Shown: positions 2,449-7,696 of the stretch, in pieces
How the letters are laid out: the number at the start of each line of letters is the position of its first letter
Position numbering within the stretch: the first letter of the stretch is position 1
Assembly: GCA_012519905.1 (NCBI GenBank)
Contig: JAAYPG010000031.1
Coordinates: forward strand, 1-35,228
Direction of reading: 5' to 3'
Length of the DNA: 35,228 nucleotides
Source of the DNA: Clostridiales bacterium
GTDB lineage: Bacteria > Bacillota > Clostridia > Lachnospirales > Lachnospiraceae
Translations under genes and position numbers: made by a program
Notes under the pieces: generated by a model
What the model was told of the DNA's origin: nothing
What the model saw: the letters and a program-made list of their open reading frames with translations, nothing else
Databases searched by the model: none

Positions 2449-3327
2449 TCAATCAGGGTTTACATGAACCATGCAATGCTTAACATTTTCAAAGGCTTCT
2501 TCTATCTTATCATGAACCTTATGAGCTATTTCATGGGTTGATGATAGTGTATCCTCACCATTGGCTATTATTTCAACATCTACGTATATTTTGTTGCCAA
2601 ATAATCTGGTCCTTATTTGCTCTACACCTATCACGCCCTCTTGCTCTAAGATAATACTCTTCATTTTCTCCTCCAGGGAACTATCACATGATTTGTCAGT
2701 CATTTTACCGATTGAATCAATGAAAATCGATATTGCTGATATAAGAATCATAATGCATATAACCATACTGGCTATAGGATCCATTAGCGGAAATTTTATT
2801 CTTGCCCCTATGATACCAACAAGGCTTCCGACAGATGATAGAGCATCAGAACGATGGTGCCATGCATCTGCCATAAGGGCACCAGAATTAATTTTTATAG
2901 ATGCTGCCCTTGTATACCAATACATCCATTCCTTTACAATAATAGATATTGCAGCGGCAATTAAGGCTAAAACACCAGGTATGGCGATACTGCTATTATC
3001 TTCTATGAATATCTTCTTTATACCAGCATAACCAATTCCAAAACCTATTGTAAAGAGCATAACTGACAGTATTATGGCTGCTACACATTCAAATCGTTCA
3101 TGGCCATATTGATGCCTTTTATCCGCCTCCTTAGCAGACATTCTGACACCGATTATTACAACAAAAGTACTTAATACATCTGAAATCGAATGAACTGCAT
3201 CAGATACCATAGCAGCTGAATGTGCAAGTATTCCGGCAGTCAGCTTAAATACACTTAGTACTACATTTACGACTATAGTGACCCATGAAACCCTCATGGC
3301 AATTTGCTTATTAGTATACTCCTTCAT
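2449..3327 (-). CDS. Cation diffusion facilitator (CDF) family transporter
   Basis: HSISDVLSTFVVIIGVRMSAKEADKRHQYGHERFE and HHRSDALSSVGSLVG CDF motifs, C-terminal cytoplasmic domain. Confidence 0.95.
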   Translation of the reverse strand: MKEYTNKQIAMRVSWVTIVVNVVLSVFKLTAGILAHSAAMVSDAVHSISDVLSTFVVIIGVRMSAKEADKRHQYGHERFECVAAIILSVMLFTIGFGIGYAGIKKIFIEDNSSIAIPGVLALIAAAISIIVKEWMYWYTRAASIKINSGALMADAWHHRSDALSSVGSLVGIIGARIKFPLMDPIASMVICIMILISAISIFIDSIGKMTDKSCDSSLEEKMKSIILEQEGVIGVEQIRTRLFGNKIYVDVEIIANGEDTLSSTHEIAHKVHDKIEEAFENVKHCMVHVNPD

Positions 3328-3363: not shown

Positions 3364-3399
3364 GCACACCCATGGAACAAAACTGTCCCACAGATGTGC
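3364..3399 (-). terminator. Intrinsic terminator of the NiCo riboswitch expression platform
   Basis: Minus strand GCACATCTGTG...CATGGGTGTGC stem (with wobbles) followed by ATTTTTATT; 5' arm is shared with the aptamer 3' half. Confidence 0.7.
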
Positions 3400-3510
3400 A
3401 ATCACCTATATGCAAAAATCATCCTACATATTAATGTCATATACACTTTCTGTTGCCACCTAAATGCGGCCCGGCTCCAAGACAGATAACTGTCTTTGGC
3501 CTGTTCAGAT
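3375..3510 (-). ncRNA. NiCo (czcD) riboswitch aptamer, nickel/cobalt sensing
   Basis: Minus strand: CTGAACAGGCC-[hairpin]-GGAGCCGGGCCGC....GGTGGCAACAGA....GCACATCTGTGGGACAG; closely matches the recalled NiCo core (AGCAGGC..GCCGGGC..GGCAACAG..CAUCUGUGGGACAG); directly upstream of a CDF exporter. Confidence 0.85.
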
Positions 3511-3657
3511 TAATCCTTATATTATTTGCCCAAAGAACTGACCAATAATATAGAGCATAATTTAGTTATATTAACATCATATGCATATAAACTTGTCAAG
3601 GGTATTGGCAATATAAGGAGCATACTACTCACTTATTTTTAGTCTTAGCCTTACTTT

Positions 3658-4965
3658 TTAGGCTTCTCTGACACCTTTATATTTTTCTAGATCTAACTCA
3701 CCTTCACTTTTGGCTACAATTAAAGCATTAGTTGCTGATGTTGTAACATTAGTCGCTGTACGGGCCATGTCAACTATAGAACTTATTGGTGTTAATATAA
3801 CAATTATTTCTATAGGTAGCCCTGCGGCAGCAAACACTGCTGTAGCAGTTATGGTTGCGGTTCCAGGAACACCAGCTGTTCCTAAACTTACCAAGGTGGT
3901 AATCAGAATTAATATTATATACTGACCTAAGGAATATTCAATATTTAAGCTCTGTATTGCATAAATTGCAAGAAGAGTTGGCCAAATCCCTGCACAACCA
4001 GGCATACCAATGTTGGCTCCTAAAGGTGCTGCAAAGGAGGATATATTATCAGATACGCCTGCCTTCTTTAAGCACTTTTGGTTCGCAGGAATCGTACCTA
4101 TACTGCTTTGGGTAGTGAAAGCGATAACCATAGCAGGCCATACATGTTTGAAAAACTTCAAAGGATTTAGTCTTGCTATAGCTCCTATAAGAATACTATT
4201 GACTCCAAATGTTTGAATTGCACACAGTAAATATGCTACTAACAACACAGACAACAGAGGCAGTAGCTTCTCCGGTCCATTCTTTGATACTGCATTGGCA
4301 ATCAGGGCCATAACTGCATATGGTGTAAATTCAATTATAAAAGAAACAGCTGTATTCATTACCTTTGTAGCCGAATCTATAAAATCTCTAAAGGGCTTTA
4401 TGCTATTAGGCTCTTTTGTAGATATTGCCACAACTGCAACACCTATAAACAAAGAAAATATAATAATTGGTACCACTGTGTTACTAGCAGCCTGGGCAAA
4501 GAAGTTTTTCGGAAATAAATCTATTATTACCTGAGTAAATTCAGGGACTTGCCTAGCTTCATAATCTGTAGGAAGTGATACAGTGACTCCCTTCCCAACA
4601 CCCAGAGCTAATGAAATAATTATTGTAAGTATCGAAGCTATAAAAGTTGTAGAAGTAAGTAAAATTATGCTTTTAGCTCCTATAGTTTTTAATCTTTTCA
4701 AGCTTTCAAGGTTAGACACACTTGATATTACACTAAAGAACAACAGGGGAACTACAAATGCCGATATCGTGTTGGCATATAAAGAACCTATAGGTTGAAT
4801 ATATTTGGTATGACCTTTAAAAGTAATACCTATTATTAAACCAAATATTAATGCTACAATAGTTCTAATTCCAAAATCAACCTTCTTTTTATATAAGAAT
4901 ATAAGGGCAGCTATAAATATAATCCCTAATACGAGAGCTCCTAATGATAAAAAATCGATATTCAT
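3658..4965 (-). CDS. DAACS (dicarboxylate/amino acid:cation) symporter, TcyP-like L-cystine transporter
   Basis: Multi-TM protein with DAACS motifs (SSIGTIPANQKCLKKAGV, GTAGVPGTATITATAVFAAAGLP, DMARTATNVT); RBS AGAGGAGAT. Substrate assignment to cystine is family-level. Confidence 0.85.
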   Translation of the reverse strand: MNIDFLSLGALVLGIIFIAALIFLYKKKVDFGIRTIVALIFGLIIGITFKGHTKYIQPIGSLYANTISAFVVPLLFFSVISSVSNLESLKRLKTIGAKSIILLTSTTFIASILTIIISLALGVGKGVTVSLPTDYEARQVPEFTQVIIDLFPKNFFAQAASNTVVPIIIFSLFIGVAVVAISTKEPNSIKPFRDFIDSATKVMNTAVSFIIEFTPYAVMALIANAVSKNGPEKLLPLLSVLLVAYLLCAIQTFGVNSILIGAIARLNPLKFFKHVWPAMVIAFTTQSSIGTIPANQKCLKKAGVSDNISSFAAPLGANIGMPGCAGIWPTLLAIYAIQSLNIEYSLGQYIILILITTLVSLGTAGVPGTATITATAVFAAAGLPIEIIVILTPISSIVDMARTATNVTTSATNALIVAKSEGELDLEKYKGVREA

Positions 4966-4968
4966 ATC

Positions 4969-4979
4969 TTATCTCCTCT
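4969..4979 (-). promoter_or_regulatory. Shine-Dalgarno of the TcyP-like gene, complementary to the uORF anti-SD
   Basis: AGAGGAGATAA pairs with TTATCTTGTCT (5043-5053, minus) at 10 of 11 positions including one G-U. Confidence 0.55.
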
Positions 4980-5025
4980 TATTTTATTGTTATATTTGTC
5001 TTTTAAATAATCTTCACTCTATATT

Positions 5026-5097
5026 TTAACAGGAACAACAACAGACAAGATAATCCCCACAAATATTATTTAACTTAATCTTGGCACATTTAATCAT
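5026..5097 (-). CDS. 23-aa Cys-rich leader peptide MIKCAKIKLNNICGDYLVCCCSC (uORF)
   Basis: ATG at 5097-5095 preceded by GGAAGGAAC SD; lies between a perfect promoter and the transporter gene; 6 Cys codons, four of the last five codons Cys. The 79-aa ORF on the supplied track begins upstream of the promoter. Confidence 0.65.
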   Translation of the reverse strand: MIKCAKIKLNNICGDYLVCCCSC

Positions 5098-5151
5098 ATA
5101 TGTTCCTTCCTTCCATTTCATACTATTCACATATGTTTTATATGTATTAGT

Positions 5152-5180
5152 ATTATATGTTGCTAAGACTTTTTTGTCAA
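5152..5180 (-). promoter_or_regulatory. SigA promoter for the leader peptide-transporter transcript
   Basis: Minus strand TTGACA (5180-5175), 17 nt, TATAAT (5157-5152): perfect consensus. Confidence 0.85.
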
Positions 5181-5214
5181 ACATATTTTGAGTACATTTC
5201 TCTTTTTTCAGCAA

Positions 5215-5355
5215 GAGGTTGTCAAAGATAGCAAAAGGGAGTGTATGTGTTCTAATCATGCACATTTAGGAGAACGGTTTGCTATAAGAGTAGTACTACT
5301 AATCAGTGTGTGATGGAACATATAACTCCCTTTATTACTTTTCTGCGACAACCTC
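5215..5355. mobile_element. MITE-like element, ~141 bp with imperfect terminal inverted repeats (copy 1)
   Basis: GAGGTTGTC...GACAACCTC ends; inner TIR similarity (AAAGGGAGT..TAT.TGTTC); palindromic centre AGTAGTACTACT; right half repeated at 34412-34470. Confidence 0.55.
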
Positions 5356-5375
5356 ACGTTATTAATTATTTCGAT

Positions 5376-5414
5376 TAAAAAAACACACTTAGATAATAGC
5401 AAATCTAAGTGTGT
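5376..5414 (-). terminator. Intrinsic terminator of ferritin gene
   Basis: Minus strand ACACACTTAGAT-loop-ATCTAAGTGTGT followed by TTTTTTT. Confidence 0.88.
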
Positions 5415-5443
5415 ATAATATCTTATATTAATTCGTATACCTG

Positions 5444-5923
5444 TTATCTAGTGGCAAGCTCTTTATCTAGAATATATAAACCACTCCAGTTGCCGTTGAT
5501 TCTTTCGATTCTTTCTACAAGAACACCAAAGGTATCCTCTTCTTCAATCTGCTCGTCTACAAACCAAGCTAGAAGATTTAATACTCTTTGATCAGCTTCT
5601 TCTCTAGCTTCCTTTACTAGGTCATGTATACGTGATGTAACCACCTTTTCATGGGCTAGGGCCTTTTTGAATACATCCTCTATGGATTCAAATTTGCCGT
5701 CACCGGGATCTAAAGGACGATATTTAATACCATATCCTGTTTCCTGGAGAAATGCTTTAATCCTTCCTGCATGCTCCATCTCTTCTTTAACTTGCTCATC
5801 TATAAAATGTGTCATTCCTTTCATATTTAAGTCATCTAAATATGCGGACATTGTTGCATAAATATATGCAGACTCTAGCTCAAAATTCATTTGCTCATTT
5901 AAATTATCATATAATTTACTCAT
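5444..5923 (-). CDS. Ferritin (non-heme)
   Basis: MSKLYDNLNEQMNFELESAYIYATMSAYLDD...FIDEQVKEEMEHAGRIKAF; start placed at 5923 because AGGAGG lies just upstream. Confidence 0.95.
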   Translation of the reverse strand: MSKLYDNLNEQMNFELESAYIYATMSAYLDDLNMKGMTHFIDEQVKEEMEHAGRIKAFLQETGYGIKYRPLDPGDGKFESIEDVFKKALAHEKVVTSRIHDLVKEAREEADQRVLNLLAWFVDEQIEEEDTFGVLVERIERINGNWSGLYILDKELATR

Positions 5924-6031: not shown

Positions 6032-7243
6032 TTATTTAATAATTTTAATAAACTTTTTCTTACCAATCTTTATAACATCAGCATTAACTAAAACTTGATC
6101 TAGATCATCTTCATTTAGCCTTATACCATTAATTTGTACTCCCTTTTGTTTTATTAAACGGATGAATTCACTACGGCTCTTAACCAGCCCATAAGCTATT
6201 AGCTTAGGAATTATATCATTTAAAGTATCCTTTTCAAGCTCTATAAGCATGGTAGGGATGTCATCAGGGATTTCCTTTTTACTAAAGGCAGCATCGTAGT
6301 ATGAAACTGCTTTCTCCACTTCCAGCTGGGTATGGTATAGGGAGGTAATTATCTTTGCCAGTCTGTATTTTATATCTCTTGGATTAACTCCATCAGCAAG
6401 TTCTTTCTTGATTTTATTTATATCATCAGGATGCTCATCAGTGGTTAACTCATAATACCTTATAATTAACTCATCAGGAAGCTCCATAACCTTTTTAAAC
6501 ATTACCTCTGCCAGTTCACTTACACCGATATAATTGCCTAGGCTCTTGCTCATTTTCTCTATTCCATCAAGTCCTTCTAAAATCGGCATAAAAATTGCAA
6601 TCTGTTGTTCCTGACCTACAGTTTTTTGCAGTGTTCTTCCCATTAGAATATTGAAGGTTTGATCTGTTCCACCTAACTCAATATCAGCTTTCAACTCTAT
6701 TGAATCCTGCGCCTGCATCAAGGGATAAAAGAACTCATGTAGGCCGATTGGAATACCATTATTGTATCTAGTTTGAAAATCATCTCTTTCCAACATCCTT
6801 GCAACTGTAGTTGTAGCAGCAAGCCTTAACACCTCTTCGAAGTTAAGCTTTGATAGCCACTCACTATTGAATCTTACTATGGTTTTATCTTTGTCTATAA
6901 CTTTAAATATTTGCTCACAATAGGTTTGTGCATTTTCTTTAACCTGCTCATCAGTAAGAGCAACCCTTCCCTTCGATTTCCCTGTCGGATCTCCTATTTT
7001 ACCAGTAAAATCACCAATTACTATAATCGCTGTATGTCCTAGATCCTGCATTTGCTTGATTTTTCTTAAAACTACTGTATGCCCAAGATGAATATCTGGG
7101 GCAGAGGGATCTAAGCCCAACTTTATTATAAGTGGTTTTTTCTTCAAATAGGATTTTTCTAGCTTTTGCAATAATTCTTCCTCATTCACACATTGGTGAA
7201 CTCCCTTAAGTATAATCTTTAACTGCTCTTTTGGCGATAACAT
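6032..7243 (-). CDS. tyrS: Tyrosyl-tRNA synthetase
   Basis: Class I motif LGLDPSAPDIHLGHTVVLRK, KMSKS, C-terminal S4 domain. Confidence 0.97.
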   Translation of the reverse strand: MLSPKEQLKIILKGVHQCVNEEELLQKLEKSYLKKKPLIIKLGLDPSAPDIHLGHTVVLRKIKQMQDLGHTAIIVIGDFTGKIGDPTGKSKGRVALTDEQVKENAQTYCEQIFKVIDKDKTIVRFNSEWLSKLNFEEVLRLAATTTVARMLERDDFQTRYNNGIPIGLHEFFYPLMQAQDSIELKADIELGGTDQTFNILMGRTLQKTVGQEQQIAIFMPILEGLDGIEKMSKSLGNYIGVSELAEVMFKKVMELPDELIIRYYELTTDEHPDDINKIKKELADGVNPRDIKYRLAKIITSLYHTQLEVEKAVSYYDAAFSKKEIPDDIPTMLIELEKDTLNDIIPKLIAYGLVKSRSEFIRLIKQKGVQINGIRLNEDDLDQVLVNADVIKIGKKKFIKIIK

Positions 7244-7309: not shown

Positions 7310-7560
7310 AAAAAACTCCCATCCTTCTGTTTCCAAAAGGACGAGAGTTATCTCGCGTTACCACCTAAAGTTTATAGGTAATTCACATTACCTACCTCGC
7401 TGAGTACAGCTTTCGCGATACTCCCGCACCTGATAACGGTGTGCTTTCCGTCGTAGCCTACTTAATAGAACATTTCGGTACGCAACTCCAAGAGGTATTC
7501 ACATTTTCTATTCACGAGCCTCTCATCAACCGGCATCTTTCTGTTTGAAATCAAAAATGT
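7310..7560 (-). ncRNA. T-box leader (Tyr) upstream of tyrS
   Basis: T-box sequence GGTGGTAACGCGAG (7352-7365, minus), terminator AACTCTCGTCCTTTTGG..AAGGATGGGAGTTTTTTC (7310-7350); candidate specifier TAC at 7497-7495 (GAATACCTC). Confidence 0.93.
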
Positions 7561-7696
7561 TACTATTTCTTATCACAGTCTTTTCTTATATAACCTATGC
7601 TTTTCATCTAAAGCAAAACAATATGCAAATATTGTCTATTATAGTACCAAGACTCTAAAAATATGTCAAGCAAATATTTACTTCTAAAAGGTCGTT

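Follow-up and report, generated by a model that had tools for sequence, protein, structure and literature searches.

Low-GC Gram-positive bacteria mostly sense amino-acid starvation by T-boxes. The question raised by the locus described here is how a gene for a cystine-type transporter may be controlled when no T-box precedes it. The gene lies on the minus strand of the window, that is, the whole stretch of 35,228 nucleotides from a member of the Lachnospiraceae that was analysed, and is preceded by a short upstream open reading frame (uORF) with a run of cysteine codons. The identification of this uORF as a candidate cysteine-sensing leader peptide is strongly supported, since it is conserved in nine orthologues, the leader-bearing transporters form a clade of single origin, and an independent case was found before a gene of another family. 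Judging from these sequences, cysteine-responsive attenuation is likely.

The candidate promoter consists of TTGACA (5180-5175) and TATAAT (5157-5152) separated by 17 nt, and is the only site within positions 3600-5500 that matches the consensus at 12 of 12 positions. The AUG of the leader lies 54 nt 3' of the -10 box and has a good Shine-Dalgarno (SD) sequence. The leader ORF comprises 23 codons, ends with CCCSC, and its stop codon is separated from the ATG of the transporter gene (4965) by 60 nt. The promoter, the SD-led cysteine-rich uORF and this spacing had all been described in an earlier, sequence-only reading of the same DNA, and their coordinates were confirmed (Table 1).

Table 1. 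Features of the leader region and of the transporter gene in the window
Feature	Positions	Strand	Remarks
Promoter TTGACA-17-TATAAT	5152..5180	-	perfect consensus
Dyad CATATAAAACATATGTGAATAGTATG, 3' of the -10 box	5119..5144		probable operator; kept with and without the leader
SD of the leader ORF, GGAAGGAA	5103..5110	-	identified by sequence; SD-like sequence before every orthologous uORF
Poly-cysteine leader peptide ORF, MIKCAKIKLNNICGDYLVCCCSC-stop	5026..5097	-	conserved in 9/9 orthologues; model R1, 52.9 bits
Sensor codons UGU UGU UGU UCC UGU	5029..5043	-	UUCCU is in addition an SD complement
Predicted anti-SD UUAUCUUGUCU, codons 16-19	5043..5053	-	pairing probability about 0.95 with the transporter SD
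Transporter SD AGAGGAGAUAA	4969..4979	-	identified by sequence; opening cost 6.8 kcal/mol
TcyP-like transporter, 435 aa	3658..4965	-	PF00375, 361 bits

The leader contains no intrinsic terminator, in agreement with the earlier remark that no U-tract terminator is visible in the 60-nt gap; a single terminator occurs nearby, at 5414-5383, and it is situated upstream of the promoter. No Rfam family matches the leader. The T-box covariance model (RF00230) finds nothing in positions 4800-5450, even at E-values up to 5, and the only T-box of the window (7334-7585) is situated before tyrS.

The transporter belongs to the SDF/DAACS (dicarboxylate/amino acid:cation) symporter family, its PF00375 score standing against a cut-off of 27.9 bits. 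Its identity to the E. coli paralogues is 29.9% for TcyP, 26.5% for GltP, 23.5% for DctA and 20.8% for SstT, and the substrate-site motif GCAG(I/L)(W/Y)P is common to it and TcyP alone among these four. Thus the substrate is probably cystine or cysteine. No NCBIfam equivalog reached its cut-off for this protein, aspartate transporters are its closest relatives by sequence among solved proteins, and in the transporter tree the branches of the E. coli reference proteins are long.

SD-led uORFs with a run of cysteine codons are present upstream of all nine distinct orthologues with at least 73% identity (73-80%, window included); conservation in close relatives, which the sequence-only reading had named as a check, was therefore observed in 9 of 9 cases. 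The run starts at codon 18-20 in every leader and typically has the form MCCSCC. It is always preceded by a lead-in of 17-19 codons, and insertions and deletions between the AUG and the run occur only in multiples of three. The number of cysteine codons per leader varies from 4 to 9, the N-terminal sequences have diverged, and the spacer between the stop codon and the gene varies from 34 to 167 nt, being long in L003 (163 nt), L008 (167 nt) and L005 (101 nt). The peptides outside the window are MKSKFKSKQKNHNKDSFMCCSCCCCCNS (L013), MKIIFKLKQKNYKKDSYMCCSCCSCCCCCIPLTI (L014), MKQEMTERNYIREGKVMCCSCCCCMC (L004), MKSDYRNNKKRREAYSMCCSCCCCCCC (L005), MRELTEFKNQNKREASIMCCSCSCCSCCCSN (L003), MSKHTKVKLNNYREGLVMSCCSCCCMQNTFK (L008), MKELNGFWKEYLRKINTVCCSCCSPLN (L073) and MVRVIDINLNNLRKTLKMRCCCC... 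(L012); Lachnoclostridium phytofermentans (L013) and Anaerocolumna aminovalerica (L014) are among the bearers. A promoter of the same kind occupies the same place in all of them, with TATAAA in L073. In L008, the transporter SD AAAGGAUA and the ATG (2501) are separated by a GUAUUG...CAAUAC hairpin, and the folded spacer may bring the SD and the start codon together.

Seven of the nine leaders have a methionine codon before the cysteine run with an SD-like purine stretch, which could serve as an internal start. This was rejected as a general feature, because the window and L073 have valine at this position, and because the upstream SD and the length of the lead-in are kept in all nine leaders.

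A tree of 28 transporters places the leader-bearing proteins in one clade (support 90/86), and the presence of the leader is explained by one change, a value as low as this being found in 0 of 500 shuffles. The leader in these transporters thus has a single origin. The sister sequence L048 (69-70% identity) has no leader, and its promoter and dyad are kept; the same is true of the more distant L079, where no cysteine-rich uORF is seen. No cysteine-rich uORF was found upstream of homologues with at most 57% identity. The 5' region of one such transporter (L049, 54% identity) contains a long inverted repeat, ATCAAGACCATAAGATGG ... CCATCCTTATAGTCTTGAT, which may represent another kind of control.

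Further leaders were sought in genomes of the family and order, about 1,000 distinct genomes at most being reached. The pattern TGYTGYTCCTGYTGYTGY matched in 41 of 397 family genomes; three of the 30 loci read were true leaders, and the other matches among these 30 lie in different frames or strands of longer genes. The pattern ATGMGNTGYTGYTGYTGY, applied to 290 genomes, yielded a single true leader, at the L085 locus. The same locus was the one further real leader retrieved from the 397 family genomes by R1, a model of the nine leaders that uses sequence only (27.6 bits, compared to 52-69 bits for the leaders of the TcyP-like transporters). In AT-rich sequence R1 gives E-values that are too favourable (92 of the 397 genomes have matches at E not above 0.01), and therefore the weight given to L085 rests on its anatomy and on the gene that follows.

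The L085 leader, MAKILIDFDRHNFRNGRMRCCCCCR-stop, is encoded on the minus strand of a 3086-base sequence, with its ATG at base 1571, in another Lachnospiraceae genus. It has the same layout, its own TTGACA promoter and, at the matching place, the dyad CCTATATAGATAGTAGG. About 75 nt separate its stop codon from the ATG of a gene of the O-acetylhomoserine/O-acetylserine (OAH/OAS) sulfhydrylase family (TIGR01326, 628 bits, cut-off 495). The occurrence of a poly-cysteine leader before such a gene ties the cysteine codons to the supply of cysteine. No homologue was found in the sole other genome of that genus.

It is reasonably probable that the leader ORF acts as a sensor of charged tRNA-Cys and that a stalled ribosome unmasks the transporter SD. 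The mRNA would start at the promoter described above, and a ribosome would translate the leader. When Cys-tRNA is plentiful, the ribosome would pass the cysteine run and leave the leader, and the transporter SD would be masked by leader codons 16-19, with little synthesis of the transporter as the result. Under a shortage of Cys-tRNA, the ribosome would stall on UGU UGU UGU (5043-5035) and cover the anti-SD, so that the transporter SD would open and synthesis of the transporter would rise. The pairing between UUAUCUUGUCU and AGAGGAGAUAA, first noticed in the sequence-only reading, is also predicted by folding, with a probability of about 0.95 for most pairs.

Folding calculations for the window agree with this scheme. 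They concern free RNA and ignore co-transcriptional folding; the controls were 36 dinucleotide shuffles of the region between the leader AUG and the transporter SD. The cost of opening this SD exceeds the shuffle mean of 2.7 kcal/mol, and none of the 36 shuffles reaches it. When the A site of a ribosome is placed on the cysteine codons, 4.9 kcal/mol is recovered, again matched by 0 of 36 shuffles. The fold energy of the whole leader is no better than that of shuffles (z +0.8), and thus, of the folding named earlier as a check, it is the sequestration of the SD itself that stands out, not the overall fold. In the window, the SD is likewise freed by a terminating ribosome at the stop codon, and therefore the contrast between the two states rests on the longer dwell time of stalled ribosomes.

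The relatives are less uniform. Release by a stalled ribosome amounts to 5.5 kcal/mol in both L013 and L073 (0 of 36 shuffles each), is weak in L014 (2.3 kcal/mol, with 5 of 36 shuffles as good), and in L004 varies with the folding window (2.9 versus 0.4 kcal/mol). In L003, L005, L008 and L012, folding shows no masked SD that stalling would free. For the nine leaders together, release adds up to 18.5 kcal/mol, compared to a shuffle maximum of 11.5. The masking sequence is formed by codons 16-19 in the window, by the cysteine run itself in L004, and by the tail of the uORF 3' of the run in L013, L014 and L073; the position of the anti-SD differs among relatives, and no covariation for SD unmasking was found. 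The suggestion that stalling on UGU codons frees the SD from the anti-SD at 5053-5043 thus agrees with folding in the window, while that particular pairing is not conserved; what recurs is masking from other positions, which is clear in L013 as well as L073, and which L014 shows weakly. Such variable placement fits a fast-evolving translational attenuator. Support for the modelled unmasking step is partial, being confined to the window and some of its relatives.

The leaders with no predicted release suggest another use of the same sensor: stalled ribosomes could protect the mRNA from decay, or alter Rho-dependent or pause-dependent transcription of the leader. The long spacers of L003, L008 and L005, where stalling frees no sequestered SD, are in favour of this; the actinobacterial poly-cysteine leaders also have no terminators, and Rho-dependent control was suggested there (PMC1262725). 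However, masking and release surpass the shuffles in three leaders (window, L013, L073), which argues against it, and the calculations gave no evidence for a decay or Rho element; this explanation seems improbable but not negligible. Still further from the preferred reading is the possibility that the nascent peptide, and not the codons, is the sensor, by metal binding or modification. Metal sensing by the nascent peptide has been proposed for cysteine-containing nascent copper sensors, and the peptides considered here are rich in cysteine, with a conserved layout and a basic N-terminal part. However, the peptides of the window, L004 and L005 have the cysteines at their C-terminal end, and that of L013 has them within a few residues of it, so that these residues would not yet have left the peptidyl-transferase centre and tunnel. 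The downstream genes are those of cystine uptake and cysteine/homocysteine synthesis, not of metal handling. Sensing by the peptide is therefore very unlikely.

The uORF could also be blind to cysteine and only aid or hinder re-initiation, with control residing at the promoter and acting through the dyad. The dyad is indeed more widespread than the leader, being present in L048 and L079. However, this gives no reason for the cysteine run to be kept in nine orthologues, and the same design precedes an OAH/OAS sulfhydrylase gene in another genus; such a role is highly doubtful. That the uORF is a chance ORF without function is practically impossible, being refuted by conservation in 9 of 9 orthologues; nothing was found in its favour. 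It is also the only one with at least four cysteines in five codons among the 143 SD-preceded short ORFs (10-45 aa) of the window, and none of 11,293 such ORFs in Markov-simulated sequence is as cysteine-dense. Codon sensing with unmasking of the transporter SD remains the preferred reading.

The serine codon within the cysteine run is UCC in all eight leaders that have serine there. This codon makes up 11.8% of serine codons in the genes of the window; the remaining serine codons of these runs are AGU or AGC (L003) and AGU (L073). The UCC codon creates CUCCU or UUCCU, the complement of an SD, and for six of the nine leaders folding predicts that this complement pairs with the SD of the same leader, with a probability of about 0.8-1.0. 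In seven of nine leaders, the fraction of synonymous recodings with complementarity to the own SD as strong as the observed one is 0.019-0.085, these fractions not being independent, as the leaders are related. One tentative explanation is that the switch locks itself, the obligatory UCC giving the cysteine run a second role as an anti-SD that acts on the SD of the leader itself. With ample cysteine, the first ribosome might pass and the run might fold onto the leader SD; it is conceivable that further translation of the leader would then stop and the transporter SD stay masked. With scarce cysteine, a ribosome stalled on the run could perhaps keep both SDs open.

The dyad, with the family consensus CATAnTAAACnnnTATG, lies directly 3' of the -10 box in all nine leader regions (window, L003-L005, L008, L012-L014, L073). 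As it is kept whether or not a leader is present, it is probably the operator of a transcription factor; a cysteine repressor of the CymR/Rrf2 type is a natural candidate and possibly the factor involved. A search for the dyad in the genome itself gave 157 matches versus 128 in a reversed control and was uninformative.

For Actinobacteria, poly-cysteine leaders that lack terminators have been predicted (Seliverstov et al. 2005, PMC1262725), and cysteine-responsive leaderless poly-cysteine short ORFs have been reported from mycobacteria (Canestrari et al. 2020, cited in PMC9094748 and PMC13236596). As far as the cited accounts describe them, the actinobacterial attenuators resemble the leader found here: a short ORF has a cysteine run near its stop codon, genes of cysteine supply follow, no terminator is conserved, and translational control has been proposed. 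Compared to the same accounts, the differences are the phylum and the transporter as target, and no detectable homology is claimed. Unlike the mycobacterial ORFs as cited there, every uORF considered here is SD-led, has a fixed lead-in of 17-19 codons and usually has UCC in the run.

The uORFC-8-2 motif of cysS in Rhodobacterales likewise has tandem cysteine codons, at uORF positions 14-15, before a cysteine-related gene; however, it is a transcriptional attenuator with a terminator and a U-tract (PMC8632094), whereas the leader here has no terminator and precedes a different gene. In Clostridium perfringens, a Cys T-box controls the CysP1/CysP2 symporters; the symporter there has limited similarity to TcyP, and some clostridial cysP2 genes have no T-box (PMC2940859). 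The task is the same, namely derepression of uptake when tRNA-Cys is uncharged, but T-box RNA binds the tRNA directly, whereas the leader here has no T-box and the ribosome would be the sensor. Finally, in erm-type translational attenuators, following the scheme outlined in PMC13236596, a ribosome stalled on the leader ORF also makes the SD of the gene that follows accessible. Those attenuators are triggered by a ribosome with bound antibiotic, and here the trigger would be a hungry cysteine codon. A literature search, with most subscription journals outside its range, found no report of this Lachnospiraceae leader.

A tRNA-Cys sensor with transporter synthesis as its output could explain the control of a T-box-free cystine transporter. 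It would mean that a ribosome-based solution was reached in Lachnospiraceae too, for both cysteine uptake and synthesis. The proposed switch is compact and natural, and can be tested in the genetically tractable L. phytofermentans. For finding further members, the leaders suggest a search rule: SD-led uORFs with a cysteine run at codon 18-20.

The other regulatory RNAs observed in the window are ordinary. The T-box leader before tyrS (RF00230, 117.7 bits, minus strand) precedes a tyrosyl-tRNA synthetase-like gene at 6032-7243, and a NiCo riboswitch (RF02683, 54.7 bits) at 3381-3518 of the minus strand lies upstream of a cation diffusion facilitator-like gene (2449-3327).
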